Origin: a virus | DNA: 64,000 nt | Strand: one strand, 5' to 3' | IMG/VR virus record: IMGVR_UViG_3300031629_000002 | Span: 1-64,000 of that record | In this document: positions 1 through 29,979 of the stretch, in pieces | How positions within the stretch are numbered: position 1 is the first letter of the stretch | Layout of the letters: each line of letters starts with the position of its first letter | Position numbers and translations under genes: made by a program | The notes under the pieces: model-generated | What the model saw: only the letters and a program-made list of their open reading frames with translations | What the model was told of the DNA's origin: nothing | The model's database searches: none

Positions 1-261
1 TCGGCATTTAGTCACGAACTTTGGTTTCCATACCCAGCCCTTACGGAAACATTCCGTAGCAAGGTGTGTAAGAATAGAACGGAGGACAAGACACTCAAAG
101 GCCGCCGCATAAAGGGCTGGGATTGTTATACCCTGCAAAAGAGCAGGTTCTTGGACACCACTGGTGAATAGAGGCATTTCGGGAGTAGGTGTTGAATGTC
201 GTTCCATGTCCACACCAAGTGCGGCAAACAAACGGTCAATGCGCTTCTTATCGGCGGCCAT
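1..261 (-). CDS. Portal-like protein, N-terminal part (runs off window)
   Basis: Only the first 87 codons are present. The reading frame opens with ATG at 261 and continues without a stop past base 1. Upstream is a good ribosome binding site, GAGAGGTGAT. The visible part begins MAADKKRIDRLFAALG, and around residues 45-80 it has the segment ITIPALYAAAFECL followed by ECFRKGWVWKPKF. This resembles the start of phage portal proteins, where a helix that samples successive residues precedes an 'arg-x-GW' patch. It follows the terminase large subunit by one gene, a normal place for a portal. The identification is inferred from this short match and gene order; a head-completion protein is the main alternative. 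Confidence 0.6.
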   Translation of the reverse strand, partial: MAADKKRIDRLFAALGVDMERHSTPTPEMPLFTSGVQEPALLQGITIPALYAAAFECLVLRSILTHLATECFRKGWVWKPKFVTKCR

Positions 262-1597
262 TGATAATCACCTCTCTCCATTCATCCATCCCCGTCGATG
301 AAATGTTCCACTCCTTCATCATATTCACTTGATCCTGCGGTTCAGCCTTTTCAAAGGCGATAAGGCGACCTGCATTTTCGTCGCCTTCAAGTGCTGATAG
401 TAAAAGGGATGCTTCACTGCGACGGGTTTCCAAATAAGGCAAAGCGATTTCAGCCGCCTTATACACGGCCAAATCACCCTCGAATACGAATTGACGGCCT
501 TCCCACATAACACCCTCCACACCCAATTCCTTCTTCAAGACATTGGTGTAGTCAATCGCACGCTTCGTGGCGAACGGTAGAATAAGTCGTGGAATACCGT
601 TTTTAGTGATGGACATTTCGCCACCAACTTCCCATAGATTTCCTATAAACGAGTCTATTCTCTTCAAAAATACTGGCTGTCTATTGGCACCGTAATGGAG
701 GGTGCGATCATCTTGCTTGGTTCCTTTGCCAACCACCGACATTTCAAAGAGGTGCCCGTATGTCTTGATGAGGCCAGCGACTTCACCGCTTGTAGCCCCC
801 ACTTCATAACTGGCAATTGTAGCCGCATTCATGTCACCATTCTTTTGTAAGGTGGTGTGGCAAGTGGAAAGTATGTTTCGTTCACGACGGCTTAGGCGGT
901 TTTCAGCATTAAGGCGGTCATGCCATGCTTTCCAAATCTCATCTCGTTCCTCTTTACTTTCGGATCTCTTAACCCCAGTCACCGTTTTCTTTAATTGATA
1001 TTCAAGGCGTTCGGGGTATTTGATAAGTAAATTGAAATCGTTGTCCTGCAATTCCAACAAGCCCCAATCATCCTGTTGCCACCAATCAAATGATTTTAGG
1101 ACAGCATGTTGTTCTTGTAGTAACATTTCGACAACCGAGGGTATTAACGCCTCTTCGCCCGCTTTTGAAAGTAATTCGATTAAGTCGGCACCGGCAATAC
1201 CCAGTTCGTCTTTGAAAAATGATTTGGTGATTCCTACTGTCGGAGAAGCGGTGACACCGGGTTGGTCGGTGGGGTTCGCTGTTTGTTCACCGCCCTTCAT
1301 CCCCGTGATTTCAGATCCGGTGGTTGCTTGGGGAGGCATTGGTGCGGCTGTCGGCGGGGGGGTTTGTTGTTGTTGTTGTTCTGTTTCGGCATCGACATCG
1401 GTATCTATCTGTGCCAATTCCTGCTCTTTGACCTTCTTTTGGTCGAGCAACCCAGTCATTTTACCTGCGGCGGCACCAATAAGGGATGGTGCTAATTTTT
1501 TTGCGGCGACACCGGCCACTGCCCCAAGCGCAGGGAGTATTTTGACAATTGCATCGTTCATAGAACGGACTTCACTATTCCAAACAATTCTTGTCAT
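248..1597 (-). CDS. Unrecognised head-region protein with hydrophobic N terminus
   Basis: The start is taken as ATG 1597, which overlaps the terminase stop as ATGA and has GGTGG upstream; an in-frame GTG at 1627 is less likely. The product is about 449 residues. Residues about 16-46 are hydrophobic and rich in Ala and Gly (ILPALGAVAGVAAKKLAP). A Gln/Pro/Thr-rich linker (QQQQQTPPP) follows near residue 80. The remainder is a mixed helical region rich in Arg and Glu with no motif I recognise. Its place between terminase and portal suggests a role in head assembly or DNA packaging, but nothing in the sequence shows this directly. Confidence 0.75.
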   Translation of the reverse strand: MTRIVWNSEVRSMNDAIVKILPALGAVAGVAAKKLAPSLIGAAAGKMTGLLDQKKVKEQELAQIDTDVDAETEQQQQQTPPPTAAPMPPQATTGSEITGMKGGEQTANPTDQPGVTASPTVGITKSFFKDELGIAGADLIELLSKAGEEALIPSVVEMLLQEQHAVLKSFDWWQQDDWGLLELQDNDFNLLIKYPERLEYQLKKTVTGVKRSESKEERDEIWKAWHDRLNAENRLSRRERNILSTCHTTLQKNGDMNAATIASYEVGATSGEVAGLIKTYGHLFEMSVVGKGTKQDDRTLHYGANRQPVFLKRIDSFIGNLWEVGGEMSITKNGIPRLILPFATKRAIDYTNVLKKELGVEGVMWEGRQFVFEGDLAVYKAAEIALPYLETRRSEASLLLSALEGDENAGRLIAFEKAEPQDQVNMMKEWNISSTGMDEWREVIINGRR

Positions 1598-3030
1598 GTT
1601 TCCGACCACCCTAAGCGTTGCGACCACGCCGCCCCATCAAGGACTACGATGCTGTCCCTATATTCTTTTGTGGCTTGAACCGCCAAAGCGAGGGCAATAA
1701 CGGTATCGTCGTGTCGGCCAAGCGACTCCATTTTACCATTTGGTAACATGGTGAACATAGAAAGTTCGTTGAGTAAAATGTCCATCATCCGGCGTGTTCT
1801 ACCTTCTTCCTTGTAAGGGAGAATCAAATGACGCTGTTCAAAGTGCAATTGGAGAGAATGTATAACCGCTTCTTTTCTCATACGGCTCATAGTAAATGGT
1901 TTGATAGGCAAGTCGCTAATCTCTTTCAGCACTTGGTGGAATGCTTGAGCGAAATTGTTTGTTTCCAATTCAACGATGACGGGGTTGAACCTTGCATTCA
2001 ATTCTATGATTTTATCAATTTGAGAACTGAAATCCATTCCCTTTTCATGGTGCATCCAAACCACTCTCTTATGTCTATTCTTATCCATAGCCAAAACAAC
2101 CATGCAAGTATAGTCGGCCTTTCGGTCGGGGCTGATTGCAGGATCCCAGCCGATGTAGTAATTGACATCCTCTTCAAAGTCGCCAGCATATGGGTCAAAG
2201 ACAAATGCGTGGTCGTCGTCTTTACAAGGGTCTGTCATTTCAATTGGGAACAGACTCGATTCACTGGCAATTGGTTTGCACAGGTATTCACGGGTAAATG
2301 ATATGGATGTCATTTCATCACGGCGTTGATGTAGTGCGTCAAGCGACCAGCGTTCGGGCCAAAGCGGCTTACCTGTTTCTTCGCTAATCGCAGGGTATTC
2401 GCTCACTTTATACCCCTTGAGTGATTTTAGTTCTTGATACAGATCAGTGTATGAAAAGGGAGTTCCTACAATACATAACTGTGCAGTGTGGTGGAGAACA
2501 GGTAGGAGGGCTGTGAAGAACCATGAAGAAATGTGAGTCAATTGGGTAGCGGCTTCACTGGACAATATATCGTCAAGCACTACAATGTCGGGGTGGGCAC
2601 CACGAACAGCCTTACCAACGGACATAGCCGAGATGGAGGATTTGTTTGTCATCTTGAACTTTTGCTTGGCCCAACCACGCTTTGGTTTCAAGTGAGAGAG
2701 AGTAGGAACTGATTCTATGAGTTCGTTCATTTTTGCCATGTGTTCGATGGATTGGTGCTGACTGTGAGAAAAGAATAGGACTTCTGTGCCGGGGTTGTAT
2801 GCCATTTTCCATAATAGATATACCCGATAGAATACCGACTTCCCATGATCACGAGAAGCAATAACACAGGTCTTGTTGAAGTTCTCGCTCATATCAAACC
2901 ATTCTTGGTGAAAGTCAGCGACCATGTAATTCTCGGCTTTGCCGCAAATGTCTTCAAAAAAATACTTGAAGTCACGACGACCCATTTCCCAATCGACTTT
3001 GTTGGCGAGATCTAACACAGGGGCACTCAT
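1594..3030 (-). CDS. terL: Terminase large subunit (packaging ATPase and nuclease)
   Basis: This is the motor that cuts concatemeric DNA and pumps it through the portal into the prohead. At 478 residues it has the usual family length. A Walker A-like loop (ASRDHGKS) lies at residues 58-65, Walker B (IVVLDD) at 149-154 and a coupling motif (IVGTP) at 187-191. The C-terminal RNase H-like nuclease carries the expected acids: D296 in IGWDPA, E354 in VIVELE, and D441/D442 in RHDDT. The start ATG 3030 lies 6 bp after the preceding gene. The stop is shared with the next gene as ATGA, indicating coupled translation. This is one of the firmest calls in the window and establishes a tailed-virus packaging system. 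Confidence 0.96.
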   Translation of the reverse strand: MSAPVLDLANKVDWEMGRRDFKYFFEDICGKAENYMVADFHQEWFDMSENFNKTCVIASRDHGKSVFYRVYLLWKMAYNPGTEVLFFSHSQHQSIEHMAKMNELIESVPTLSHLKPKRGWAKQKFKMTNKSSISAMSVGKAVRGAHPDIVVLDDILSSEAATQLTHISSWFFTALLPVLHHTAQLCIVGTPFSYTDLYQELKSLKGYKVSEYPAISEETGKPLWPERWSLDALHQRRDEMTSISFTREYLCKPIASESSLFPIEMTDPCKDDDHAFVFDPYAGDFEEDVNYYIGWDPAISPDRKADYTCMVVLAMDKNRHKRVVWMHHEKGMDFSSQIDKIIELNARFNPVIVELETNNFAQAFHQVLKEISDLPIKPFTMSRMRKEAVIHSLQLHFEQRHLILPYKEEGRTRRMMDILLNELSMFTMLPNGKMESLGRHDDTVIALALAVQATKEYRDSIVVLDGAAWSQRLGWSET

Positions 3031-10822: not shown

Positions 10823-11383
10823 TCATCCCTCCATATCTTCGTCACAGTTTAAGCAATATCCCCAATAATTAGGGCCTTGCTTTGTTTTTTCCCTCTCACG
10901 CTTCAATTCCTGATCGCTCATACCTTGAAACCGACCTCCTTTTTCTGCTATTTCCTGTAAGTTATCTTCTTTTGTATCTATTTCCAACTCTTCGGATAGG
11001 CACATGGGGCAAGACCTTGGTGATTTTGATTTCACCACAGACCAACCTGCGCTGAACGCTCGGTCAGTGGATGCTTTCTTAGAACCCCATTTCGGACGGC
11101 GGTTGCACTTTGAGCAATTATCATCACCGCACCCACCACCACATGAGGAACAATTACCTTGTCCACAGTAAGACCAATCTTTCTTGTCGCATTTGTCTTC
11201 ACAATTCATTGTAGCACAAGCGGCCTTTTTCACGACAGGTTTGAAATCCTCTTCTCGTTCCATGTAACCGCATTTATTACAAACGAAATTAACATGACCT
11301 TCTTCTTCTCTTATCATGCCGCCATGTGGATTTCCACATTCGGGACACTCGACAGGCTCTCCAATAAATCTCGCTTCAACCAT
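10823..11383 (-). CDS. Multi-zinc-ribbon protein with internal tag segment
   Basis: The start at ATG 11383 overlaps the upstream stop; an in-frame ATG at 11401 is an alternative. The roughly 186-residue product has at least four CxxC pairs before residue 100 (CPEC, CNKC, CSSC, CSKC). Then comes the shared segment (DRAFSAGWSVVKSK, about residues 108-120). Another ribbon (CPMC ... CLNC) closes the chain. It is the longest of three adjacent genes that share this zinc-segment-zinc layout. Zinc binding is clear from the Cys spacing. The biological role is not. Confidence 0.78.
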   Translation of the reverse strand: MVEARFIGEPVECPECGNPHGGMIREEEGHVNFVCNKCGYMEREEDFKPVVKKAACATMNCEDKCDKKDWSYCGQGNCSSCGGGCGDDNCSKCNRRPKWGSKKASTDRAFSAGWSVVKSKSPRSCPMCLSEELEIDTKEDNLQEIAEKGGRFQGMSDQELKREREKTKQGPNYWGYCLNCDEDMEG

Positions 11384-12086
11384 CTTCAAGAACCCCCGCA
11401 TCGGCTAATGCTTTACGCATAACTCGCCACTCTTCCGGTGACTTTTCGGAGAAGTGGGCCTGTATAACTGTCAAGACACTCACCTGCTCGTTAGAGCCGA
11501 GTGATTCGGCTTTAATTAGGTATTCGCTAATGTCGGTTAAAGTGTCACGAACTTCACGATGTAATTTCACTGCGGTGTCAAGACCCTTGTAATCAAGAGT
11601 TCCTGTTTCCTGCCGTTCCTCTTGCATCAGATCCAAGTGGTCGTTGAATAAGCCGTTAAGGCGTTGGAGGTTTCGTTCCGTCTGTGCCATAGCGGTGTGT
11701 GCGGTTTCGATGGCGGCTGGCAATACCTCCATATTCACTTGTCTTTGTATTACGGGTTGAGTGTGATGTTCGATATGTTGGGCGAGAGCCGTTTCGGTGA
11801 CATCCAAATCCGTCGCCATATCGGCCATTCCAACAAGACCGTTGAGAATTGCCGCTTCAAGGTTGGCTCTTTCGGGGTGTGTGCATACAGGACATTCTGT
11901 ATTGCTATTATTATGATACTCACCGGAATGACGCCTCATGTGGCGGTGTGCTGTTCCCTCCGCCCAGTCTTGGTTCAAATCCAATTCAAATACCTCAAGC
12001 AATCCAATACGGATTTGTTCTTCGTATCGATCTCTTGATTCATGCTGACAAAAAGAGCAGTTTCTACGCACACGCCTCCCCGTCAT
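11376..12086 (-). CDS. Zinc-binding helix-turn-helix-like protein, possible small terminase
   Basis: The 236-residue product has CSFC near the N terminus with His residues after it (HRHMRRH). A second Cys pair follows (CPVC, about residues 64-67), leading into a helical stretch, HPERANLEAAILNG...TDLDVTETALAQHIEHH. The last part looks like a helix-turn-helix of the kind found in phage DNA-recognition proteins. The C-terminal half is helical. A sequence-specific DNA-binding role fits. A terminase small subunit is one candidate because none is otherwise apparent, but the distance from terL makes that tentative. Confidence 0.7.
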   Translation of the reverse strand: MTGRRVRRNCSFCQHESRDRYEEQIRIGLLEVFELDLNQDWAEGTAHRHMRRHSGEYHNNSNTECPVCTHPERANLEAAILNGLVGMADMATDLDVTETALAQHIEHHTQPVIQRQVNMEVLPAAIETAHTAMAQTERNLQRLNGLFNDHLDLMQEERQETGTLDYKGLDTAVKLHREVRDTLTDISEYLIKAESLGSNEQVSVLTVIQAHFSEKSPEEWRVMRKALADAGVLEDG

Positions 12087-12297: not shown

Positions 12298-12558
12298 TCA
12301 ATAGCGAAAGGATGCGTATTGTCGTATTGCTATAACGGAGGTAAGTATTAGACCGAAGAACATAGCCATTACTGCGCTTGTTCCCAAGGCTGGCCCTTTC
12401 CATACTAATACCACGAATGAGAAGAGAATGAATGCTATAATGTAGATCATCGTTGCACTTTCAACAAGTAGTTTCTTTGGACTTAATATGTCAATCGTGG
12501 CCGAAGACCATGATACTTCTGCGTTTATTGCTGGTTGATTTGGTTTTTCATTTGTCAT
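12298..12558 (-). CDS. Small membrane protein
   Basis: An 86-residue protein starts behind GAGGTGATGAACA. Two hydrophobic helices are visible: about residues 38-53 (MIYIIAFILFSFVVLV) and 62-77 (AVMAMFFGLILTSVIA). The N-terminal 30 residues are polar. It ends RQYASFRY at a TGA. The +1 frame continues directly into a proline-rich, Cys/His-containing tail, so the native product may be longer. Family unknown; a membrane or envelope-associated virion component is possible. Confidence 0.8.
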   Translation of the reverse strand: MTNEKPNQPAINAEVSWSSATIDILSPKKLLVESATMIYIIAFILFSFVVLVWKGPALGTSAVMAMFFGLILTSVIAIRQYASFRY

Positions 12559-12569
12559 TGTTCATCACC

Positions 12570-13238
12570 TCAAAGGACTGTTCCTGCTTTAGCGGCCATA
12601 TTGACCCCGTGTCCCATAGTAGCACCAAAGCCACCTTGGCCTTGAACTGCGTTGCCCATCATTCCACCAAGCATACTACCGAAGAATCCCGGCTGTTGCT
12701 GTTGTTGCATCATCTGTGATTGCATAGAACCTTGCTGATGTGCGGCAAGGAACATTTGTAATTGCTGTTGATTGGTGTTTAGAACATTCTGTGCCGACGA
12801 TTGAACCTTTTGTAGTGTCAAGGCGAGATTTTCCGGTGACATTGTTTGGAGTTCATTTGGCATAGAAGAAGCATCGAGGGTCATTTTGTTATCCTCGATT
12901 TTGAATGAAACATTATTGAAGAACTCTTTGATTGATAATTGGACAATTTCTCCTACTAAGTCTAAAACCAAAGCCATGTTATTGCTGACTACAAACGCTG
13001 ACATTGGGTCATACATACCAAGTAATTGAGATGTTGCTACAATTGGATCGTTGGCGGCCTGTTGCATCATAGGGTTGTTTGCTTGTTGCATCATCCCAAG
13101 TCCTCCACCCATTCCCATTGGCTGTTGTTGTCCGTAGCCCATCATGTTCTGTTGTCCGTAGTTTTGCTGTGCGGCCAAAGAAGGGGCACCAAATTGCTGT
13201 GTCGTTTGCGGTTTATTTCCAAATCCAAATAGTCCCAT
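12570..13238 (-). CDS. Gln/Met/Gly-rich protein with conserved helical middle
   Basis: ATG 13238 follows AAGGTGAGAATA and gives about 222 residues; a GTG at 13247 is less likely. The N terminus (MGLFGFGNK) and the C-terminal third are Gln/Met/Gly-rich and probably disordered (GQQQPMGMGGGLGMM). The middle (about residues 75-150) is ordered, with LVLDLVGEIVQLSIKEFF then SFKIEDNKMTLDAS. The pattern resembles an assembly or shell-associated protein with low-complexity arms, but I know of no family. The gene is tightly coupled to its upstream neighbour. Confidence 0.78.
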   Translation of the reverse strand: MGLFGFGNKPQTTQQFGAPSLAAQQNYGQQNMMGYGQQQPMGMGGGLGMMQQANNPMMQQAANDPIVATSQLLGMYDPMSAFVVSNNMALVLDLVGEIVQLSIKEFFNNVSFKIEDNKMTLDASSMPNELQTMSPENLALTLQKVQSSAQNVLNTNQQQLQMFLAAHQQGSMQSQMMQQQQQPGFFGSMLGGMMGNAVQGQGGFGATMGHGVNMAAKAGTVL

Positions 13239-13248
13239 TATTCTCACC

Positions 13249-14154
13249 TTATTGTTGTGCCATCATTGGCTCTTGGGGCACCATGGTGCCTTGCATGTCT
13301 TGAGGGGAAACGCCCATCATAGATTGTTGTTGCGCCATCTGTTCCAATTGCATGGCTCTCATATCGAAGGTCACAGTCACCAGATCAGCAACACCAGTAA
13401 TTGGGTTTGCGTGTTGTGTCAAGGAGACACCCTTTGAGTATTGAGCGTCCTTTTGAATCATTTGGAAAAAAGTGCCATACTTTGCTAATGACTCCGGTGT
13501 GGAACGGTTTTTTGCTTGACTTCTATTCAAACCCGGAACCTTCAAGAAACGGGTTCCTTTTGACACCGCCTTGCCGAATCCCTCGTTTTCCATCTCATGT
13601 TCCTCGACCATACAATACAGTGTATGGAATATGTGAAGGTGTGCTGGACATAGTGTGCTGTTCATTTCGTCGCCGTGATCGCCGTGTGTTCGGGCGTGTG
13701 GCTTGCGAGCCTGTCCCGAATCCTCGTCAAACCAATAGATGTCGGCTAAAGACAAACCTGTCTTTTCATCAACAATGTGGTTGTATGCGTTGTCTCCTTC
13801 AAGGAAACGGCGCACATCAACACCACAGCAAGAGCATTCATGTGCGGCATTGTAGCGGTAGATTTTGAATAAGCCCAAATTGTAGTTTGGAGGGCGTAGT
13901 GCCTTTCTCATTTTCTTAATGTTCTTTTTACGGGCTTTGCGTGGATTATTGACATTGGTGACAAGTTTCAATTCGACAGTGGGGATGAGGGCTTCTCCTT
14001 CTACTCCACCAGTGGAACCTGCGGTTGCCATCTCGGCTCGCTGTTGGGTCTTTAACATAGCAAACGAAACACCAGTATGTGCGGCAAGTATTTTCAACTC
14101 TTCGTCACTTAAGCCGTTTAATGTAATACCGCCGCCGAATGGATTAAGCCTCAT
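13249..14154 (-). CDS. Zinc-binding protein of unknown function
   Basis: A 301-residue protein starts behind GGCGGTGATGAAAC. It begins MRLNPFGGGITLNGLSDEEL. A basic region (NPRKARKKNIKKMRKAL) lies near residue 75. A Cys/His-rich centre follows: HECSCCGVDV, then HARTHGDHGDE, then CPAHLHIFHTLYCM. This should bind zinc and could be an HNH-like or structural fold, but I cannot place the catalytic residues with confidence. The C-terminal 60 residues are Gln/Met rich, like the next gene. It is followed closely by that gene with coupled spacing. Confidence 0.75.
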   Translation of the reverse strand: MRLNPFGGGITLNGLSDEELKILAAHTGVSFAMLKTQQRAEMATAGSTGGVEGEALIPTVELKLVTNVNNPRKARKKNIKKMRKALRPPNYNLGLFKIYRYNAAHECSCCGVDVRRFLEGDNAYNHIVDEKTGLSLADIYWFDEDSGQARKPHARTHGDHGDEMNSTLCPAHLHIFHTLYCMVEEHEMENEGFGKAVSKGTRFLKVPGLNRSQAKNRSTPESLAKYGTFFQMIQKDAQYSKGVSLTQHANPITGVADLVTVTFDMRAMQLEQMAQQQSMMGVSPQDMQGTMVPQEPMMAQQ

Positions 14155-14209: not shown

Positions 14210-14935
14210 TCACATCATGTCAATAGTCCGTATAACGCCAGCCTCCACATTTAGTCCATATTGAGCCGCCATAGCCTCGACATTGGTCGCTATTGCCGCC
14301 CTTCTCAAGCGTCTCATATCTGTTTGAAAGGGCATAACCATAGGATGTTGGCGTTTCAAACCCAAGTCCCACATTTGCTGACATTCGTTAGTCCACCACA
14401 GATCCATTTTATTCAACACTAAACACACTACCTTTGGTTTGTAGTTCTTTGCTTGTTTCTTCATAGAGCGTGTAAATGTTGAGGGGAACCTATGATTGAC
14501 TATAATGTCTGTAAGGTATTTGAAACCAGCAACCGCTTCTTGCATAGCGGGTTCCGACCATCCTACCCTATCATCCACCACGAAAAAGACAATGGAAGCG
14601 TTTCTATTGAGCATGTCTTCGGCCCACATGTTCCAGTATTGGGATTGTCCCCCGATGTCGGTTGTAGAAATAGGAACCCTTTCTCCCTTCCACCGCACTT
14701 GTTTCTTTGAACCGTGTGGCATTAGGTATGACCCGTTCTTAACAGGGTGTGTAGTTCTCAATTCCAATGGGATTGGGTCGATGTCACCGGGAACAGTAAG
14801 GTATTGGTCGAGTGTTGTCTTACCGGCCAAAGAAGGGCCGTAAATGGCTACTCTATGAGGCCGTAGCAAACGATAGACATAGGCGGCTATTTGAGCCGAC
14901 CCCATCAATAGGTGTCCTGCAAACATCCAAGACAT
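14210..14935 (-). CDS. Arf-like small GTPase
   Basis: A 241-residue P-loop GTPase. G1 is GPSLAGKTT (residues 33-41). A Thr pair in the probable switch I is at 61-62. G3 is DIGGQ (93-97), and G4 is NKMD (175-178). The D-x-G-G-Q form of G3 is typical of the Arf/SRP-receptor-beta/Roc branch rather than bacterial translation GTPases. The hydrophobic N-terminal segment (MFAGHLLMGSAQIAAYVYRLL) could be a membrane anchor or an Arf-style amphipathic helix. It lies among small membrane proteins (12298, 14941 and 15178), which supports action at a membrane. The GTPase fold is clear. The cellular role is unknown and unusual for a virus of this kind. Confidence 0.88.
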   Translation of the reverse strand: MSWMFAGHLLMGSAQIAAYVYRLLRPHRVAIYGPSLAGKTTLDQYLTVPGDIDPIPLELRTTHPVKNGSYLMPHGSKKQVRWKGERVPISTTDIGGQSQYWNMWAEDMLNRNASIVFFVVDDRVGWSEPAMQEAVAGFKYLTDIIVNHRFPSTFTRSMKKQAKNYKPKVVCLVLNKMDLWWTNECQQMWDLGLKRQHPMVMPFQTDMRRLRRAAIATNVEAMAAQYGLNVEAGVIRTIDMM

Positions 14936-14940
14936 TCACT

Positions 14941-15162
14941 TCACTTCCCCCTGATCCATTCCCAAACGCTTGTTGGGTTTATGGAGAGCCATGTGTCCAT
15001 TCCAAGTAGTATGAAGAAGGTTAAGGCCATTCCGCCAAGAAAGGCTAAGGCTGTTTTCACAGACCAAGCGGCTCTTTCCATCCTTCGATCATATGCGTTC
15101 TCGGCAAGAATGGCTGACATCGCTTCGGCTTGTCGTTCTTGTTGTGTGTTGAAAGGCCACAT
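14941..15162 (-). CDS. Small single-pass membrane protein
   Basis: A 73-residue protein behind GTGAGGGAAACCC. Residues 1-35 are polar and charged (QQERQAEAMSAILAEN). One strong transmembrane helix follows (ALAFLGGMALTFFILLGM, about 39-56), then a short tail ending WEWIRGK. It is immediately upstream of the Arf-like GTPase, whose start follows its stop by 5 bp. It is a plausible membrane partner of that GTPase. No family recognised. Confidence 0.82.
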   Translation of the reverse strand: MWPFNTQQERQAEAMSAILAENAYDRRMERAAWSVKTALAFLGGMALTFFILLGMDTWLSINPTSVWEWIRGK

Positions 15163-15177
15163 GGGTTTCCCTCACTA

Positions 15178-15654
15178 TCACTGTGCTGGTTCTTCCTTTT
15201 TGGGTTCTTCGGTGTTTGGTAGCCCGAATGTCTGTTGAGAAGGATCATTCCACGCCTGTTGCTTATACATTTGCGATTCTTGGCTCATGTTGTAGTCTTT
15301 TCGAGAACGACGCTGTTGTAGTCTTTGTTGGTTACGGTGCCACTTGTCATAGCGACCTTCTTGAGAGAACTCGGCTCGTAGTGCAAGGGAGTCACGAATA
15401 CCCCCAACATGGAATAAAACCATAGAGATACAAAGGAAACCGAATGCTATAAGCCCGTATTGAAGACCCATCTCACCGGGGCTTGCTCCCGGTAGATACC
15501 ATTGTAGATGCGATATTGTTACCGAAACGCCAGTTAAGAGTGATTGCCATAATAACATAGCAATCAAATTGATGTCGATCCGGTTATTGTCGTCGCCGCC
15601 GTTGTTGGCCCACGGAGGCATCTGTGCAGGTTGGGGTGCGTTTGGGGCTTGCAT
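15178..15654 (-). CDS. Two-pass membrane protein with basic Gln-rich tail
   Basis: A 158-residue protein starts at ATG 15654, overlapping the upstream stop as TAATG. A Pro-rich N terminus precedes two membrane helices (about residues 30-47 and 67-85, LIAFGFLCISMVLFHVG). The C-terminal half is polar and rich in Arg and Gln (WHRNQQRLQQRRSRK). It could be an envelope, tail or lysis-related membrane component. Its place next to another membrane protein and a GTPase suggests a membrane-active module. Confidence 0.82.
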   Translation of the reverse strand: MQAPNAPQPAQMPPWANNGGDDNNRIDINLIAMLLWQSLLTGVSVTISHLQWYLPGASPGEMGLQYGLIAFGFLCISMVLFHVGGIRDSLALRAEFSQEGRYDKWHRNQQRLQQRRSRKDYNMSQESQMYKQQAWNDPSQQTFGLPNTEEPKKEEPAQ

Positions 15655-15800: not shown

Positions 15801-15826
15801 GTATGTATGCCAGTAGTGTTAGGGCT

Positions 15827-16378
15827 ATGAAGGTTATGATTATGAACATGGTGGGCGTGGGGGTTCACATGACGACCCCAAATGTGCCGGACGCTGTGAC
15901 CGCTATGCGCTCATATCAATATGTTGTAAATGCCTCACCGAACAGCAGTTCTCTCCTTTCTTCGTGGATCCAACGCCACACCGATGAGTCCTTAGCCGCC
16001 GACTTTGACTATAAAGCGGCAATCGCAGTGTTGGCGTATTTCAACCACCCACTTTACACTACTACTACGAACCAACCAACAGGCACAGCCGCATGGGTTT
16101 CACTGATGAATGGGGCCGAAAGCATACTTCAAGCCGAGGCGTCATGGATAGACGACCAATTACTTATTGCCAACATCACACGCCCACAGCGTTTGTTCGA
16201 TAGCGACATCACTTGGTTGAGCCAGTGGGCGGCGGCAAACAATGTGTCGGCTAATACCGAAACCGCATACTTGCTGAACTCTTTGATTCTTCAATTACAA
16301 ATCTGTGAAGGAACTAATGGTGCTACAAATGCGTCCAGTGTTTCACACACTGTTCACACATCACCGACAGTCCCTTAG
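15827..16378 (+). CDS. Lone plus-strand protein with hydrophobic N terminus
   Basis: About 183 residues from ATG 15827; an in-frame ATG at 15803 is possible. The N terminus (MKVMIMNMVGVGVHM) is short and hydrophobic, like a weak signal or anchor. The rest is rich in Ser, Thr, Asn and Ala with Trp residues (SLLSSWIQRHTDES, AEASWIDDQLLIAN) and ends in a Thr/Ser/Val tail. This composition suits a secreted or surface protein. It is the only plus-strand gene in the first 21 kb. It is divergent from the ribbon-helix-helix gene and converges on the GP88 gene, overlapping its stop. Family unknown. Confidence 0.7.
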   Translation: MKVMIMNMVGVGVHMTTPNVPDAVTAMRSYQYVVNASPNSSSLLSSWIQRHTDESLAADFDYKAAIAVLAYFNHPLYTTTTNQPTGTAAWVSLMNGAESILQAEASWIDDQLLIANITRPQRLFDSDITWLSQWAAANNVSANTETAYLLNSLILQLQICEGTNGATNASSVSHTVHTSPTVP

Positions 16379-18402
16379 AGAATATCGTTCAACCGTTGCT
16401 GGTCGAGGTTGATTGGGAATAAAGGCTTCATGTTTTTATCGTAGTCGATGTTGCCGCCAGTTTTCAAACGCACTTGTTGGTTTTTGCTTCCAGCGATATG
16501 AGGGTTATATGAAACAGGTTTGTCACCCCAACATGCTTCGCAGTTATGATCCATACACGAACCACCCGCTATTGATACAGGGCAAATGTGTGTTCCGGGG
16601 GTGTCTTCGGCTCCAACGAACGAAGCGGTGACATTGGGATGTTCTGTCGCTTGTTGGAATGCCGATGATAATTTGGGTAGGCCCAATTCTTGGTTTCGGT
16701 CATTATCGGCCCCTTGACCGACAAACGGTGCGCTCAATGAAACAGACAGGTTGTCGGGTATGGCGGTGTCATAGTCCCTGCCACTTGATTGAAGGAACAT
16801 GTTCAGTGCTTGGGCTTCACGGGTAGGCAACCATGCCCTACTTTTCAAAGGACTCTTTGCACCTATTGTTCTCATGGTATCGGAGAGAAGGGAGAGATGT
16901 TTGGCTTTGTCTTCACTTGTTTTACCTTGTAAATCACCCGACTCAAAGAAGCGGAATAAATCGGTTCCGTGGTCTAACACTGATGAGGACATCCTATTCC
17001 CCAAAGCCGAACCATAGCGAACCATGTCTTCGATGTTTTCGGGAGTCCTCAAAGCGATGGCGTTTCGCCAATTGGCTATTTGTTTTTGATTCATAGACGC
17101 ACGACCATGATCGTGAGCATAACAGTTCTCACAGGTAGCACCTGCAACCTCTCTCATTTTACTACCGACACCACACATGTGAGTAGGGAAGTTTTGATGC
17201 GCTCCGGGCATTTTTGAATTATCACCCAATGGGCTACCTATTGTTCTTTCAGCCTGTTGTTTCATATTCCCGCCTTGTATCAGTGTTCTAAAATCGGGAA
17301 AGTAGTCGTCTATTCCTTCAAGGGGATAGTTCACATTGAAGTCTGTGTCGAATTGGTCGGTCTTATCTTTGTTCGCTTCGACCCAATTGAAAACATCACG
17401 CCCGTGACCCGGCCCCTTTCCGCTTTGGTTCAACCTTTTGTCCCACCAACCTATTTCACCGGGATCTCCCAGTGCTTTGATGAGAACCTCACCAAGACTG
17501 AATAATGAATCACTTCGTCGGACAACATTGGTGAAATCTATGCCCTTTGGAAAATACATACCGTGTGGGGTGACAATACCCGTATTACCATCGAAGCGTG
17601 TTCCCTGTCCAATAGGTATTGGTTCGGCCATTTCACCAACAGGGCCAGCAGGGAGCATGGCGAAATCACCAGTTCCCGATATTTGATGAGGTAATGGTCG
17701 GCCCATGTGTTCCGTTTGAGTTTTACTTCTTCGCCCGAACAGTGGGTGTATTCCCAAGTCCTTGTGATCCTCGACAGGTTCTTCCTTTACATCATCCCGA
17801 TAAACGATATTACCTTGTTCATCATGGTAAAATGGGCGGTATGTCACCAAGTCGGCTTGCCAGCCCTCTTCATCAAGAACTCTTGCGTTGCCGTTGGCGT
17901 CCATTTCCACATCATAATTATGGACATCTTGGGGTAGTTCGTCGCCTAAAAGGTATTGTTGGGATTCGGAAACATCAAGCCGACCGGAAATCGGGGCGTG
18001 TAATGTGCGACCCGGCCCCCTTGCTGGCAGTTTTCTTTCGCCCTCCCTCCAACGCTTATTGCCATGCAAAGCGTCACGCTGTGAGTTTCGATCAACAGAC
18101 ACCATAGGATCATGTATAGGAACCTGTGAAGCGACTTCGGTGCTTACAGGCGCACCCCCTCCAACAAGCCTTCGTTGAACCGCCATCATACCCGGCCCTC
18201 TCTTAGCGGGGTCTTTTGGATCCGATGGGAACTCATCAAAGTGTTCGGGCCTTAGACCCGGAGGCAAACGCAAATCACGACCCGGTGATGCTTGACTTAT
18301 GTTGCGAAAGGAGGCGATAGAGTCGTCTTTTGGAACATTACCTGCGGCGTCTTCTTTCTTACCACGGGCGGTATATTTCCAGTCAAACGGCCCTGTCATC
18401 AT
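16375..18402 (-). CDS. GP88-domain protein (Cys-rich, phage gene product 88 family)
   Basis: The start is ATG 18402, forming ATGA with the upstream stop behind GGGGGA. The roughly 676-residue protein has a long polar N-terminal region. Around residues 390-560 is a region matching the phage GP88 domain: NSKMPGAH, then ATCENCYAHDHG, NWRNAIALRTPENI, and RFFESGDLQG followed by a SRAWLPTRE segment. A second Cys group (CPVSIAGGSCMDHNCEAC) closes the chain. The Cys spacing suggests a metal or Fe-S site, but the activity of this family is not known to me. LFSLGEVLIKAL near residue 310 weakly resembles the shared tag segment. Confidence 0.8.
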   Translation of the reverse strand: MMTGPFDWKYTARGKKEDAAGNVPKDDSIASFRNISQASPGRDLRLPPGLRPEHFDEFPSDPKDPAKRGPGMMAVQRRLVGGGAPVSTEVASQVPIHDPMVSVDRNSQRDALHGNKRWREGERKLPARGPGRTLHAPISGRLDVSESQQYLLGDELPQDVHNYDVEMDANGNARVLDEEGWQADLVTYRPFYHDEQGNIVYRDDVKEEPVEDHKDLGIHPLFGRRSKTQTEHMGRPLPHQISGTGDFAMLPAGPVGEMAEPIPIGQGTRFDGNTGIVTPHGMYFPKGIDFTNVVRRSDSLFSLGEVLIKALGDPGEIGWWDKRLNQSGKGPGHGRDVFNWVEANKDKTDQFDTDFNVNYPLEGIDDYFPDFRTLIQGGNMKQQAERTIGSPLGDNSKMPGAHQNFPTHMCGVGSKMREVAGATCENCYAHDHGRASMNQKQIANWRNAIALRTPENIEDMVRYGSALGNRMSSSVLDHGTDLFRFFESGDLQGKTSEDKAKHLSLLSDTMRTIGAKSPLKSRAWLPTREAQALNMFLQSSGRDYDTAIPDNLSVSLSAPFVGQGADNDRNQELGLPKLSSAFQQATEHPNVTASFVGAEDTPGTHICPVSIAGGSCMDHNCEACWGDKPVSYNPHIAGSKNQQVRLKTGGNIDYDKNMKPLFPINLDQQRLNDIL

Positions 18403-19568
18403 TGTCCCCCCTGTTTCAGCACAGCCCACCCTTGTTCAAAGGCGTTTTGGGGTTCGGAGAGTTCAAAGTCCAATAATGCTGTCTGTGAACCTTCTTTCGG
18501 GAGGAACTTACCGTAGCCGTAGGTCTGCAATAATTGATTGATAGAATGACCGTCAAAGTCGTCCACATTCGCAACACCTATCATTTCGGGTTTGGGGCCA
18601 CGCTTTTCGGGGTTTCCCGATACATTATCGGGGCGTTGAATGACGGTAGTGTCAAGGCCAATATCCTTGTATTGTTCGATGGGGTCGATACTGTCAAAGG
18701 CCAATACAGGCTGGCCTTCTTGTATTCTTTCCTCTAATTGGCGGAACATCTGTCTTGGATCGAAACCCTCACCGTAAGTGCCGGGTTGCCCCGAATAAGG
18801 AGGGTCATTGATAACTCCTGCTTTATTGTCAATATCCCATTCGGCCAGTGCTTCGGCACCATCGCCTTGGCGCACATTCACATTTTTGAGAGGTTCCCTG
18901 TAATTCAACAGGTTTTCCATTGAGGGTAAGGATTGCATGGTTTTGACATCGGGTGGGTTGCTCGGCCACAGCATTCCTTCGTGTTCATTACCAACTTTGT
19001 TATGGCGGATTTGTCCCACATGTCCCGCACGCTTATTGCGAAAAAGGTTGAGTGCTTGGGCAAGGCGCATAGACTCGGAGCGTGGTTCACCATCTCTCAT
19101 CAATGTATCATAATAAGCCAAGGTATCGGGGGGGACAGCATCTCCACGCTTTCTTTCAGTGACATTCGGGCCTCTTATTTGTGTTCTCCAATGGTCTTTC
19201 AATTGTTGATCGTTTAGACCCTGCAACATACTCCAATCAATGTCAATACCTTGTGTTCCTTGATTAGACATGGCCTCAACCAAAGCGGCGGTTCCGGCAT
19301 CCATTTCATTGTAGTCGCTCGAACCCTGTGGCAAAATGTTGAGTATGTCATTAGCAGGGCCGCCATAGGGAACTTGTAGGCCATCAATACCGGCTTTATC
19401 GGCAAAGTTCCTTTGAACCATCCTATAATGTGGTTTATTTTTGGAGCCAGTGTGTCGAACGATGGGTGCCATACCTTTAGCACCCGACATGTCGGCACGC
19501 ATAGCGGCCATTTCGGCGGCGTCAATACGGCGACCTGTGCGGTGTCCCTTGTATCTCGGCAAAACCAT
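18399..19568 (-). CDS. D12-class DNA adenine methyltransferase with C-terminal tag segment
   Basis: A 389-residue protein. The catalytic motif DPPYSG is near residue 255 and marks N6-adenine or N4-cytosine methyltransferases. Around it are FRNKRAGHVGQIRHNKVG and NVRQGDGAEAL, in the order seen in Dam-like D12 enzymes. PYGGPANDILN near residue 67 may be the SAM-binding start. It would methylate viral or host DNA. The last 15 residues are NAFEQGWAVLKQGGQ, a C-terminal copy of the segment that begins the effector genes. The enzyme may therefore be targeted like those proteins rather than acting only in replication. Confidence 0.85.
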   Translation of the reverse strand: MVLPRYKGHRTGRRIDAAEMAAMRADMSGAKGMAPIVRHTGSKNKPHYRMVQRNFADKAGIDGLQVPYGGPANDILNILPQGSSDYNEMDAGTAALVEAMSNQGTQGIDIDWSMLQGLNDQQLKDHWRTQIRGPNVTERKRGDAVPPDTLAYYDTLMRDGEPRSESMRLAQALNLFRNKRAGHVGQIRHNKVGNEHEGMLWPSNPPDVKTMQSLPSMENLLNYREPLKNVNVRQGDGAEALAEWDIDNKAGVINDPPYSGQPGTYGEGFDPRQMFRQLEERIQEGQPVLAFDSIDPIEQYKDIGLDTTVIQRPDNVSGNPEKRGPKPEMIGVANVDDFDGHSINQLLQTYGYGKFLPKEGSQTALLDFELSEPQNAFEQGWAVLKQGGQ

Positions 19569-23651: not shown

Positions 23652-24406
23652 TCATAACCACCCGCCCTCCATTCATCGGCTTCTTTGATTTGTTCATCAG
23701 TGGGATAGCGGATAACTTGCATTGAACCGGAACAATTGTTTTTGATTCCATCTACTGGTTCTTTGAGCGAAACCCCGCAAACCCCACTATTGCGATAAGC
23801 AATCCTGCCACAGTCACGGCATTGTCGCAATTTGGATATAATACCCTTGATTAAAGCCCATGCTTGTTCGACGGCGGTCGTTTGCGGGTCGGCGGAGGCA
23901 GTGAAATAAGACGAAGGATGACGGCGATTTGCCTTAGAAGCGCAATCATCCCATTCAGTAAGTAATTGGCGTGCGAATGCCTGTAATTTTTCATTCAATC
24001 CGGTTTTTGCCGCTTGCGGGCCTAAAAGACCCTGTGTATGACCCTCTTTGTCATAATTGACACTGTGCTTCTCACCAAACCTGCCGCTTGCCCATTCTTC
24101 TAATTTTTCACGGAGGTTGTCGCACGCATTCTGTGTGTGGTATTGTAGGGTGTCATAGGTTTCCGGGTAGTCGGGATCGTCGTCGCCCATAGCATGAGGC
24201 ATGTCCCATTCTTCGTGACCCCAAGCACTTGTTTCATAATACCATTTTGTGCTAATTTGAATACAACATTCGTCAGCAGGGAGGCTGTCATCATCATCCC
24301 AACCGTCCTTATCGGGTATTTTCATCGGCGGTGGTGGTGATGACATTTCCGGCGGTTCCAATGTCGCATTTTTGATAAGTGCGAACGCTTGTTCAAAGGC
24401 GGTCAT
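23648..24406 (-). CDS. Tag-bearing protein with second internal tag and zinc ribbon
   Basis: 252 residues from ATG 24406, chosen because the N terminus MTAFEQAFALIKNA and its DNA match the sister genes. Residues 45-160 form a helical domain with scattered His and Cys (ETSAWGHEEWDMPHAM) and no motif I recognise. At 175-187 the segment returns (QTTAVEQAWALIKG). It is followed directly by a zinc ribbon (CRDC at 196-199, then C210 and C225). The layout suggests two cargo modules, each led by its own tag. Start and stop overlap the neighbours by 4 bp. Confidence 0.75.
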   Translation of the reverse strand: MTAFEQAFALIKNATLEPPEMSSPPPPMKIPDKDGWDDDDSLPADECCIQISTKWYYETSAWGHEEWDMPHAMGDDDPDYPETYDTLQYHTQNACDNLREKLEEWASGRFGEKHSVNYDKEGHTQGLLGPQAAKTGLNEKLQAFARQLLTEWDDCASKANRRHPSSYFTASADPQTTAVEQAWALIKGIISKLRQCRDCGRIAYRNSGVCGVSLKEPVDGIKNNCSGSMQVIRYPTDEQIKEADEWRAGGYE

Positions 24407-24885
24407 TCTTTGTCCCACTCCTGCACATGGCCCACTGGCCTCTCTTCCCATAGCCGCTTATCATTAGCCCTACCTTGATTTTTATTACGGTGAATAAACC
24501 ACCCTGCTTCTTTGAGCGATTCCTCGTCAATTTCCTTTCCTGCCAATTCTTCCTCCGAATCATCAACAAGGCTAATGTGTTCGGGAGCCACCTCACCAGA
24601 TCCAAGGACATTCCATCCCAAATCCTTAACATCATCTCGGCTGTTTATGTGATCATCATCAATATACAACAAAGCAGGAGGACTACCATGAGAAATAGAA
24701 CGACTTGCGGCATAGGCTCTTGCCATGAGTTCATCGGGAGTCATGTAAAATGATGGGTCGCCCATGAGCGCACCACCGGGATTCATAGCCTTGCCACCTT
24801 CTTGGAGGATTTTCTTTGCCGCCTCCATGGTAGTTCCGTGATATGGCATTTTCAGTAAAGCGAATGCTTGTTCAAAGGCGGTCAT
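24403..24885 (-). CDS. Tag-bearing ADP-ribosyltransferase-like effector
   Basis: 160 residues from ATG 24885. The segment MTAFEQAFALLKMP leads straight into YHGTTMEAAKKILQEGG, then SFYMTPDELMARAYAAS and PALLYIDDD. A YHGT strand, a 'GL/GG' turn and a Y-x-T-x-D-x3-A-x3-Y helix are the usual markers of the ADP-ribosyltransferase fold (PARP/diphtheria-toxin-like branch). The C-terminal part is helical. The first 31 bases of the gene, plus a few beyond the start, are almost identical to those of the next gene at 24406. This points to recent duplication of the leader. Likely activity is transfer of ADP-ribose from NAD to a host target, by inference from fold. Confidence 0.72.
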   Translation of the reverse strand: MTAFEQAFALLKMPYHGTTMEAAKKILQEGGKAMNPGGALMGDPSFYMTPDELMARAYAASRSISHGSPPALLYIDDDHINSRDDVKDLGWNVLGSGEVAPEHISLVDDSEEELAGKEIDEESLKEAGWFIHRNKNQGRANDKRLWEERPVGHVQEWDKE

Positions 24886-25079
24886 TCTTTCCCACCTCTC
24901 CATCCGAAGCCATATCCCTTGCTACAATCGGTCGGGCATTGAATACCACCAAGCATTGAATTGTAGTTCACCCATTCACCAGCGTCAATGGTTCGACCAC
25001 AGGTCTTACAATTGCCAGTGTATTTAGCCTTAAAGGGGGCTTTCAGTAGCGAAAAGGCTTTGGTAAATGCTGTCACCAT
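24882..25079 (-). CDS. Minimal tag-plus-zinc-ribbon protein
   Basis: Only 65 residues: MVTAFTKAFSLLKAPFKAKY, then a zinc ribbon with CKTC, and CPTDC after about 25 residues. It ends with a Gly-rich tail (GYGFGWRGGKE). It is the smallest member of the set and shows that the segment can be joined to a single small module. Start and stop overlap the flanking genes. Confidence 0.75.
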   Translation of the reverse strand: MVTAFTKAFSLLKAPFKAKYTGNCKTCGRTIDAGEWVNYNSMLGGIQCPTDCSKGYGFGWRGGKE

Positions 25080-25942: not shown

Positions 25943-27721
25943 TCACTCCATATCGGGGTAGTCCAATAACTCGGCGTCTTCGGAACGATTGCGTCTTATG
26001 AAGTCCCTTTCCCATTCTTCCATACCATTATTCCAGTCTGCTAAATCAATTTCCCTCTCCATGAGATCATCGGTTTCCGATGTGGACATTTGCCCTTGGA
26101 ACTCATCGGGTAGTGCTATTTTACCCGACGCACCTTGTTGAAGGCGTTTTAATGCCTCCGACATGTGTTGATCTCGTTCATGGTCTTCATAGTAATATCC
26201 GGTTGTTCCTAAAGCATTTACTGGTTGAACTGCTCTTGGTGCCACCTCATCCCCTTCGTCGTTGTAATGCCAGCCTCTATGGGCACTCTTCTCTTCTTCG
26301 GGTGTCATATCATGGTCGGGCATCATCGAAGCAATCCACGCATAAAGTTCGTCTTCATCCATAAACTCGCCATCCATACCTTCAAGGTCGTCTTGAATGT
26401 AACCCATTGATTGCGGGTCGGCTGTAACGAACGACGCAGGGTTTCCGTCTTCATCGAAGCCGGGGTCGGGTGCCACTTTGATTGCTGGGTAGGTTTGGCG
26501 CATAGGTGGAACCCCGTGATGACTTAATCCCAAATTAGATAGAATACTTTGATTAAACGACGATTCGGGAACAGCAGATCCATACATCGCATAGGCCAAT
26601 GCTTCTTCCTTGTCCTTTGTCCAATATCGGAACTCGTCGTTGATTCTGTCACCGCCGGAGTAAAGTGGCCCCGTGACCTTGCCGTATGTGCCTTGTGGTG
26701 TATCAACGCTCCACGGTGCCTTGATTAAATGCCAAGCCTCATCAAATGCACCCATAGGTTCACCCGCTTGCTTAATATCCCCCTGTGATTCTATCGGTCG
26801 GGGCATTTTTACCTGTTCCCCGCCATGTTGCCTTTGGTATTTGGCTGGCACTTTATTCCCTCTTGCTGTTGTCGAAGGGTGATATGAGAGGCGGTCATTT
26901 ACTTCCTTTTCTTCTCCCGCAAATTGTCCCGAATAAGCACCTATTTCGTGTGCCATATTATAATTCGCTCTCGGTAATTCCCCTTCTGCAACCGCACTAC
27001 TTATGGGCTGGTCTATTGCCGCATGGGTTCCTTCGTGGGCGAGAGTGGATGTTATTTCGGGTGTTTTATTTTCGGCTTCTTCCGCCGAAAGCATCTCGTC
27101 AGTCCACCCATATTTACCAAAAGCCGCTAAATTGACACCATTCATGGTTTCATAATCTTGCATACCACCCAATTTTTGCGGTGCCTTACTATCGAGATCC
27201 ATTACATTGTTATTTCTGTCCACTCGACCTCGGTCTATTTCGTTGCCCTTCATATCAAGCAAGTTTGAACTTCCGTGGAACTTTGCTGTATCGGATTGAA
27301 CAGTAGTAGTTCTCGGTTGAGAAGCACCTCTTCTAAAAGGAACATCTCCTTGCTGGGCAAACTCCCCTCGTTCCGCCCGTTCCTCTTGGGTAAATGGTTC
27401 ATTGGCGGTTCTTACATCATCATCCATCACTCTTGTCGAAGGGCCACCATATTGAGTGTTCTCGGCGGTCATAGGAATACGCTGTTCTGTTCCCGTTGCA
27501 CGCTCTTTGTTGTGTTTTTCACTCTCCATGTTATTGTAATCCGCTTGAAACTTGCGCTCTTTAGGATGCCACCAGCGTGGTTTTTGATAATCAACGGTGG
27601 TGGTGGCGTTTGCTTCCGGCCCCCAATAAGTTCCTGCGCTTGACCCATCGTCCATACCGTCTTTACGGGGGAAATACATTTCCGATTTCATCAAATGCCA
27701 CACTCTATCAATTGCGCTCAT
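25943..27721 (-). CDS. Two-module tag protein: HExxH peptidase-like plus ADP-ribosyltransferase-like
   Basis: 592 residues. The N terminus is MSAIDRVWHLMKSEMYFP. The first module has LAHEGTHAAID (zinc ligands H229, H233, with E230 catalytic) and MAHEIGAYSGQ (E259 as probable third ligand), a gluzincin-like pattern. Near residues 323-336 the segment appears again as MGAFDEAWHLIKAP. A second module follows with GPLYSGGDR, FRYWTKDKEEALAYAMYG and TYPAIKVAP, which resembles the ADP-ribosyltransferase core. The tail is acidic. It reads like two complete effectors joined end to end, each with its own tag. Cleavage between them, or internal initiation at the second Met, should be considered. Confidence 0.75.
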   Translation of the reverse strand: MSAIDRVWHLMKSEMYFPRKDGMDDGSSAGTYWGPEANATTTVDYQKPRWWHPKERKFQADYNNMESEKHNKERATGTEQRIPMTAENTQYGGPSTRVMDDDVRTANEPFTQEERAERGEFAQQGDVPFRRGASQPRTTTVQSDTAKFHGSSNLLDMKGNEIDRGRVDRNNNVMDLDSKAPQKLGGMQDYETMNGVNLAAFGKYGWTDEMLSAEEAENKTPEITSTLAHEGTHAAIDQPISSAVAEGELPRANYNMAHEIGAYSGQFAGEEKEVNDRLSYHPSTTARGNKVPAKYQRQHGGEQVKMPRPIESQGDIKQAGEPMGAFDEAWHLIKAPWSVDTPQGTYGKVTGPLYSGGDRINDEFRYWTKDKEEALAYAMYGSAVPESSFNQSILSNLGLSHHGVPPMRQTYPAIKVAPDPGFDEDGNPASFVTADPQSMGYIQDDLEGMDGEFMDEDELYAWIASMMPDHDMTPEEEKSAHRGWHYNDEGDEVAPRAVQPVNALGTTGYYYEDHERDQHMSEALKRLQQGASGKIALPDEFQGQMSTSETDDLMEREIDLADWNNGMEEWERDFIRRNRSEDAELLDYPDME

Positions 27722-28727
27722 TATGACCCCTCCATGTCCAATTTTCTTTTAATCTATCGTAACGGTCGTATTGATCTTCCGACCCCATGCCTTTCGGCTC
27801 ATCTAAATATGGAGGCATTTCATTAAACGGCTTTAAGCCCTCAACCTCAACCATGGCATCCATCCATTCTTTGATTTCCGTTGCTTCGGGATAACCCAAA
27901 GCATCCCAAATGTTGAGGTTGCCGACGACAGTAGTGGGTTCCGTTATGTCGTAGGTCAATGAATTGTGTAGTCCCGCCTCCCGCACTTTCGCCACCGCTT
28001 GTTGGAGTATTCCTTCATAGGGTTTTGCCGAGTAGTTTCTTTCAACGGCCATCATATCAGCCGTTTCACGGTCAAACCCTTGATTCCTTGCCCAAAGTCG
28101 CCTCGCTTTATCCGATTGCGCCGAGTCCGGCTTCAACGGAACACCCCAATGGGTCAATAAATCATACATGTCTGTCCCCAAACCAAGCCCTTGTAGGCGG
28201 TTTGGTAAATCCGGCATAGGGGTGGAACGGGGATCTTGGGTTTGGGCGGTGTCTGCACGGGTATGATACCGACGACCGAACGGGTCGGTATGATTGTAAA
28301 AGTCGGCACCACCCACATGGCGGTCTTGGCCGTGTATTGATTCTTTAATTTCGTCTATATCTATTTCATTTGAACGAGCCGCTTCGGCCAATTGCTCTTC
28401 ACTCATAGGTTGCGTCACCGACATTTCACCGCCTTCACGCCTGTAAGGTTCCCAAGCGGGTTTGTTTTTTGGGGGATTGAGAGTATTACGAAGCCACTTA
28501 TCCATCCTAATGTTGTAGCGTTCTCCCGTGTGCGGGTGAATCCATTGGGCTGATGCTTCACCGCTTTGTAAATCCCGTGAGTTTCTTTGGGCCTGTCCAC
28601 GGTGGTCTTTAGCCTCCATGAAGTGGGGTGGTTTGTCGGACGGCTTATCAGTCCACACGGGTTCAGTCACCGTGTCCCAGTCAATGGGCATCTTAATGAG
28701 GGTAAAGGCTCGACTAAATGCACTCAC
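27708..28727 (-). CDS. Tag-bearing GNAT-like effector
   Basis: 339 residues beginning MSAFSRAFTLIKMPIDWD. The first 110 residues are polar with Trp/His. Around residues 180-225, LPNRLQGLGLGTDMYDLLTH followed by SAQSDKARRLWARNQGF matches the end of a GNAT domain (acetyl-CoA loop G-x-G-x-G, then a helix with 'LW-x-R-N-x-GF'). A C-terminal region of about 100 residues is unrecognised. Start and stop overlap the neighbouring genes. Acetylation of an unknown target is inferred from fold only. Confidence 0.65.
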   Translation of the reverse strand: MSAFSRAFTLIKMPIDWDTVTEPVWTDKPSDKPPHFMEAKDHRGQAQRNSRDLQSGEASAQWIHPHTGERYNIRMDKWLRNTLNPPKNKPAWEPYRREGGEMSVTQPMSEEQLAEAARSNEIDIDEIKESIHGQDRHVGGADFYNHTDPFGRRYHTRADTAQTQDPRSTPMPDLPNRLQGLGLGTDMYDLLTHWGVPLKPDSAQSDKARRLWARNQGFDRETADMMAVERNYSAKPYEGILQQAVAKVREAGLHNSLTYDITEPTTVVGNLNIWDALGYPEATEIKEWMDAMVEVEGLKPFNEMPPYLDEPKGMGSEDQYDRYDRLKENWTWRGHNERN

Positions 28728-29557: not shown

Positions 29558-29979
29558 TCCTCCGTATAATCGTGTATGATGCCGTCTTCATACATGCGTT
29601 CCCAAAATCCTTTGGCCGATTCAATCACATCTTGCCCCATAACCTTTGAGTCGGGATTCATTTTCTCATGCTCTCGCATTTCAGCAATCATTTGCACCAA
29701 AGCCTCACGCCCCTTACCCTTCCCTCTCATAGAAGGATCTATCTCAAAGTATGGAATGCGTGCCCCAATGTGAGTTCCGTTCCCCGTTGTATAGTCAGCA
29801 CGGCGGTGAAGACCCCAAGCCTTCGGGTTCGCTTCATCATCAACCCAAAAGTCATCTCTTTTTTGGTGTTCAAAGTCGGAAACAGAACCCATAACCCCAT
29901 CCCATGCCTTTTTTGGTAATTTGTCGGGGGCGACAAAGGGCATTTTCAGTAAAGCCCAAGCGGTGATGAAAGCGGTCAT
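29554..29979 (-). CDS. Tag-bearing GNAT acetyltransferase-like effector
   Basis: 141 residues, beginning MTAFITAWALLKMPFVAP. Residues 70-100 have YFEIDPSMRGKGKGREALVQ, the V/I-x-P-x3-G-x-G-x-G/R acetyl-CoA loop, followed by helix MIAEMREHE. FWERMYEDGIIHDYTEE closes the fold, comparable to the end of the gene at 22935 (FWDKMVDRGAIH). These two probably descend from one GNAT module. Start and stop overlap the flanking genes by 4 bp. Confidence 0.75.
   Translation of the reverse strand: MTAFITAWALLKMPFVAPDKLPKKAWDGVMGSVSDFEHQKRDDFWVDDEANPKAWGLHRRADYTTGNGTHIGARIPYFEIDPSMRGKGKGREALVQMIAEMREHEKMNPDSKVMGQDVIESAKGFWERMYEDGIIHDYTEE

Follow-up and report, generated by a model that had tools for sequence, protein, structure and literature searches.

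A virus-specific small GTPase gene in a conserved late-gene module of Poseidoniales-type tailed viruses

Features of the GTPase gene

The window analysed here is a stretch of 64,000 nucleotides of an IMG/VR virus record. Positions 14210-14935 contain exactly one open reading frame, on the minus strand, and the opposite (plus) strand is interrupted by stops there. The gene starts with ATG and encodes a virus-specific small GTPase of the Ras superfamily with 241 amino acids. Five G motifs were located in the protein, all encoded on the minus strand: G1, or P-loop, GPSLAGKT (residues 33-40; 14816..14839), the candidate G2, or switch I, IPLELRT (residues 55-61; 14753..14773), G3 DIGGQ (residues 93-97; 14645..14659), G4 NKMD (residues 175-178; 14402..14413) and G5 AAQYG (residues 223-227; 14255..14269), the last corresponding to the family consensus SAQxGxNVE.

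In an alignment of 55 family members, all five motifs are present, in order, and their key residues are invariant. The G1 pattern GxxxxGKT and the G4 pattern NKxD, in the form NK[MIA]D, occur in 55 of 55 sequences, the I-P and R-T of the switch I candidate IPxxxRT are fixed, and D93, G96 and W104 do not vary; G5 reads S/A-A/S-Q-x-G-x-N-V-E in most members. The third motif has the family form D-x-[GA]-G-[QDHE], with GGQ in 25 members, AGQ in 13 and a final D, H or E in 17, the glutamine being present in 38/55. The DIGGQ box emphasised in a first-pass annotation is therefore present and represents the commonest form in the family, but it is not fixed. A chance open reading frame was rejected as an explanation on the basis of the invariant motifs and conservation down to 36-38 % identity.

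An AlphaFold model of the GTPase, built with an alignment of 38 relatives, has a mean pLDDT of 83.6 and a pTM of 0.83, and consists of a helix (residues 2-24) followed by the G domain. Confidence is low for residues 1-8 and for residues 40-49 after the P-loop (pLDDT <50). Ras-superfamily structures in the PDB matched the model along its length (best E 6.8e-8); there were 939 matches at E <= 0.001, the best 50 of which were mostly Rho, Rab and Ras proteins, with modest TM-scores of 0.4-0.5 by query length. The annotation's statement that the nucleotide motifs are clear is borne out by the five motifs and the Ras-superfamily model, and the protein is predicted to bind GTP via a complete G domain. 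Single-sequence searches of Pfam and PHROGs reached no cut-off (Ras 14.7 bits, Arf 13.3 bits).

The N-terminal helix (14864..14932, minus strand) is hydrophobic to amphipathic and is a candidate membrane anchor. Its hydropathy is weak (KD about 0.7 to 1.4), and in the window protein the maximum over 19 residues is 0.99, with a helical moment of 0.47. These values suggest membrane association of an amphipathic, weakly hydrophobic helix rather than a true transmembrane (TM) segment. SRbeta is a membrane-anchored GTPase whose N-terminal hydrophobic segment is a true TM anchor. The viral helix differs in having a hydropathy too low for a clear TM segment, and no SRPRB match above the cut-off was obtained.

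Gene neighborhood

The GTPase gene lies within a series of minus-strand genes whose order is the same in more than 50 loci. Upstream are a 158-amino-acid two-TM protein with a charged C-terminal tail (15178..15654; 53/56 loci) and, directly before the GTPase, a 73-amino-acid single-TM protein (14941..15162; 54/56 loci) with a TM hydropathy of 2.03. Downstream follow a 301-amino-acid Cys/His (zinc-type) protein (13249..14154), a 225-amino-acid Gln/Gly-rich protein (12570..13247; 56/56 loci), an 86-amino-acid two-TM protein (12298..12558; 53/56 loci) and a 236-amino-acid protein with two CxxC/H-type motifs (11376..12086; 55/56 loci). The small membrane proteins that had been noted near the gene are thus confirmed, on both sides of it, and their conservation and linkage in related viruses, proposed as a check, were found in the same order. 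The two small two-TM proteins have charged ends and a topology that may be holin-like. A 191-amino-acid gene (window 15803-16378, plus strand) lies inside the late operon, opposite in direction and beside the two-TM gene, and is conserved in 27/56 loci.

The zinc-type protein is the constant partner of the GTPase. A search with this protein gave 263 matching places, from which 79 loci were kept; the GTPase is present in 76 of them, within 300 bases upstream in 75, and the contig ends first in the other three, so that the zinc-type gene follows the GTPase in 76/76 assessable loci. Residues C107, C169 and H172 are invariant in all lineages. A model of the protein (pLDDT 76, pTM 0.49) gave no fold match in the PDB, and no known Pfam domain was found in the other module partners. 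A Roadblock/MglB-type partner was sought with Pfam among the neighboring genes and none was present.

The landmarks of the late operon lie on the same strand. The terminase large subunit, TerL (1594..3030, minus), matches phrog_38 (E 1.1e-70), and the window edge cuts a portal protein fragment (1..261, minus) that is 78 % identical over 83 amino acids to L071:8793-10289, itself a match to a portal family at E 7e-56. The module lies upstream of TerL in magroviruses. In a far lineage (L069, L070) the two-TM, single-TM, GTPase, zinc-type and fifth genes instead follow the protease, the major capsid protein (MCP) and three small genes, which indicates that the set stays together despite rearrangement. 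The near-complete magrovirus G303 has the order GTPase module, TerL, portal, protease, MCP (phrog_24667, E 4.9e-51), a tape-measure-like protein and large genes that are presumably tail genes. Portal, protease, MCP and tape measure occupy other parts of this strand, so the module cannot simply be equated with the tail; it is fixed on the late strand, yet apart from the head-tail genes. The short tape-measure-like protein of G303 (L167:141-1565) has 474 amino acids and eight predicted TM segments.

TerL neighborhoods with 10-kb flanks were mostly too short to reach the GTPase, and whole records were searched instead. Among 15 further TerL-bearing records the GTPase is present in eight, and five (two far-type, three magrovirus) stop before the expected site. 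The remaining two, G318 and G319, whose TerL identity is 26-27 %, have no GTPase in the record. Viruses with a TerL 37-38 % identical to that of the window carry a far-type GTPase; in G305, for instance, TerL is followed by it at a distance of about 14 kb downstream.

Family distribution and host

Pattern scans of IMG/VR identified 54 distinct viral loci carrying the GTPase. One additional locus was found in the Poseidoniales single-cell genome AG-422-I20, on a contig of 106 kb that also has TerL, portal and head maturation protease genes. This contig links the family with a Poseidoniales cell, the virus being either infecting or co-sorted. The GTPase was not found in 50,697 phage records, has no match in PHROGs, and occurs on only a few contigs of the bacterial and archaeal genomes scanned.

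The window virus has magrovirus-type marks, namely TerL, portal and an archaeal DNA polymerase B (PolB) that is closest to those of haloarchaeal tailed viruses. As the window record is partial, a prohead protease and an HK97-type MCP were seen only in relatives. The view that this is an archaeal virus is upheld by TerL, by the affinity of PolB and by the relative on the Poseidoniales contig. The hosts are abundant ocean archaea and the carriers their tailed viruses. An Asgard host was not accepted: the one match in an Asgard metagenome-assembled genome (L057) is an 8-kb scaffold, and binning is unreliable here, as sister contigs ended up in Maricaulis and Cytophagaceae bins.

Only 1 of 194 Poseidoniales genomes searched contains the gene, on the virus contig of AG-422-I20, the other 193 being negative, and Pfam Arf matches were absent from all 60 Poseidoniales genomes examined for them. 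The gene is therefore a virus gene rather than a host gene in transit, and recent descent from a host gene was rejected. A stray acquisition from the host, or a lack of conservation, had been named as findings that would refute the annotation; neither was found, the gene being conserved, tightly linked and absent from host genomes. In the reading we favor, the GTPase belongs to the core set of late genes in tailed viruses of the Poseidoniales type, comprising magroviruses and two more distant lineages.

Relationship to other GTPases

The GTPase had initially been called Arf-like, and that family label is unsupported, although weak leanings toward Arf proteins were detected. The family profile gave 8oun as its best match among solved structures (E 5.6e-6), followed among GTPases by Arl8/Arl10C and Rab33B. 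Over the stretch shown, the 8oun sequence hardly differs from that of the Asgard-genome protein L091, for which Pfam Arf gives 178 bits. Profile-profile comparison with seven Asgard groups gave scores of 106, 94, 91, 85, 80, 79 and 70, of which 106 belongs to an Arf-type group with a Cys-rich N-terminus, 85 to a short Arf group, 79 to a Ras/Rab group and the lowest (69.5) to an Era-like group; the scores lean toward Arf-type proteins without deciding. Four Asgard GTPases (L077, L078, L080 and L082) with VDxPGD at G3, followed by W, are among the better cellular matches of the viral profile.

A maximum-likelihood tree of 66 sequences united the viral proteins in a single clade with support of 100/98; the stem of this clade measures 1.07 changes per site, and the deep joins of the tree are unsupported. 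In approximately unbiased (AU) tests, grouping of the viral clade with Arf (p 0.393), Era (p 0.325) or Ras/Rab (p 0.367) was not rejected, and the pairing with Era had the smallest likelihood cost. The phylogeny proposed in the annotation has thus yielded a supported virus-only clade, but no placement with Arf over Era-like or Ras/Rab proteins. We conclude that the protein belongs to the Ras superfamily as a virus-specific family, for which Arf, Era-like and Ras/Rab proteins are all candidate sisters.

One explanation that we consider improbable is that this is a genuine Arf-family GTPase, taken from an archaeon (an Asgard or Asgard-like host) and recruiting coat-like proteins to membranes. 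The profile match to 8oun and its Asgard counterpart, with Arl8 and Arl10C next, an Arf-type Asgard group as top scorer in the profile-profile comparison, the W that follows G3, invariant and of the Arf/Galpha kind, and the N-terminal helix would all fit such a capture. Asgard Arf-family GTPases (8oun/8oum type) indeed share D-x-[GA]-G-Q followed by W and a helix before the G domain; the viral family differs from them in its variable G3 glutamine (missing in 17/55), a G5 (SAQxGxNVE) resembling that of Ras, Rab and Era, a longer G1-G3 spacing and a separate clade, whose long stem does not join Arf in the tree (weak branch, 67/83). The Pfam Arf score of 13.3 bits lies below the cut-off of 22.3, Arf-family matches are lacking in the 60 host-order genomes, and of the best 50 fold matches, mostly Rho/Rab/Ras, one (9edr_G) may be Arl2. 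Arf proper has a myristoylatable glycine at residue 2, where almost all viral members carry Ser, Ala, Thr or some other residue than Gly; Gly2 occurs only in three open reading frames read from an upstream start (L023, L044 and L049).

Descent from archaeal Era-like GTPases (MMR_HSR1 type) rather than from Ras-superfamily small GTPases, with a convergent G3, is likewise unlikely in our judgement. Asgard Era-like proteins are among the weak matches to the viral family, their GIYGxxxAGKTTL P-loop and IPxExR stretch resemble the viral P-loop and switch I, and the Era pairing was the least costly in the AU comparison. Against this stand the bottom profile-profile score of the seven groups, the absence of Era-type GTPases from the best 50 fold matches, and a viral G3 and following W that are unlike those of Era-type proteins. 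One Asgard Era-like protein was also used as a query against 40 Poseidoniales genomes; it gave no match, which carries no weight because the search had no positive control.

Giant-virus Rab/Ras-type GTPases (Harvfovirus and Edafosvirus entries in BFVD) are similar in being virus-encoded and appeared among the fold matches. They differ in having eukaryotic hosts and in being named Rab, Ras or Ran proteins, and a constant gene set that includes TM and zinc-type proteins is not known to us for them.

Proposed role

The GTPase may be a late, membrane-associated, virus-specific switch for virion assembly or egress, a reading we favor tentatively and at slightly less than even odds. The sequence data show the family and its motifs, the predicted fold, the linkage of the genes, their position on the late strand and the absence of the gene from host genomes; that the protein associates with membranes, forms a complex and switches with GTP, and which step it serves, we infer. 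The GTPase would sit on the cytoplasmic face of the host membrane via its N-terminal helix, with two or three of the small co-encoded TM proteins helping to hold it there, and the zinc-type protein encoded directly downstream would probably act as effector or regulator. Whether GTP or GDP is bound would probably time or drive a membrane step late in infection: the assembly and packaging of heads attached to the membrane, or the release of virus from the host cell. Position in the late operon fits assembly, egress or entry alike and cannot separate them. The more specific proposal, that small membrane proteins, switch and zinc-type partner form a dedicated GTPase machine governing how virions mature or leave at the host membrane, is put forward as a speculative and rather unlikely one.

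The module could instead belong to the virus particle, for example as an entry complex, carried inside it or on its surface, that contains the GTPase and penetrates membranes. Its genes run in the same direction as the virion genes, lie close behind the MCP in the far lineage and are kept in all lineages found; in magroviruses, however, they stand upstream of TerL and apart from the head-tail genes. No GTPase is known to us from virions of prokaryotic viruses, and we regard this alternative as doubtful. Regulation is a common role of small GTPases and could suggest that the protein steers host physiology with no tie to virion assembly or exit, but takeover genes usually turn over fast, and the late-strand position, strict linkage and conservation seen here are unlike such genes, making this very unlikely.

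A literature search found no small GTPase reported from archaeal (tailed) viruses, with earlier mention in magrovirus papers possible. Small GTPases are regulatory parts that one would look for in eukaryotes and the giant viruses infecting them, whereas this one is a core gene of archaeal tailed viruses and has fixed membrane partners. The module offers a defined five-gene target for studying GTPase-controlled virus assembly or exit in archaea, and a GTPase machine at the host membrane, if true, would be a type of late control without a described counterpart among viruses of prokaryotes.

Other features of the window

A ten-residue motif, AF[DE]xA[WF]xLLK, occurs in 16 copies in 15 otherwise dissimilar late-strand proteins (shuffled mean 0.05) between window positions 8071-32141, minus strand. 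Carriers include the genes at 31638-32141, 29976-30503, 28724-29557, 25943-27721, 24403-24903, 18399-19568 and 10823-11401. In related viruses the motif was found in 204 of 3,203 open reading frames, within the first 12 residues in 122 of them, compared with one occurrence in shuffled frames and 0/454 in those of cellular loci, and eight adjacent genes of G303 start with AFDTAWxLMK-like tags. The motif resembles a common tag for sorting or for packaging into virions.

A PAPS reductase-like gene (window 58102-59061, plus; phrog_424, E 5.8e-39) lies between the genes for DNA polymerase B and a nuclease. The protein encoded at window 32138-33028 (minus) carries VGPRDGLQ near its start, as do L005:7655-8497 and proteins of several relatives, and presumably resembles HMG-CoA lyase-type aldolases.
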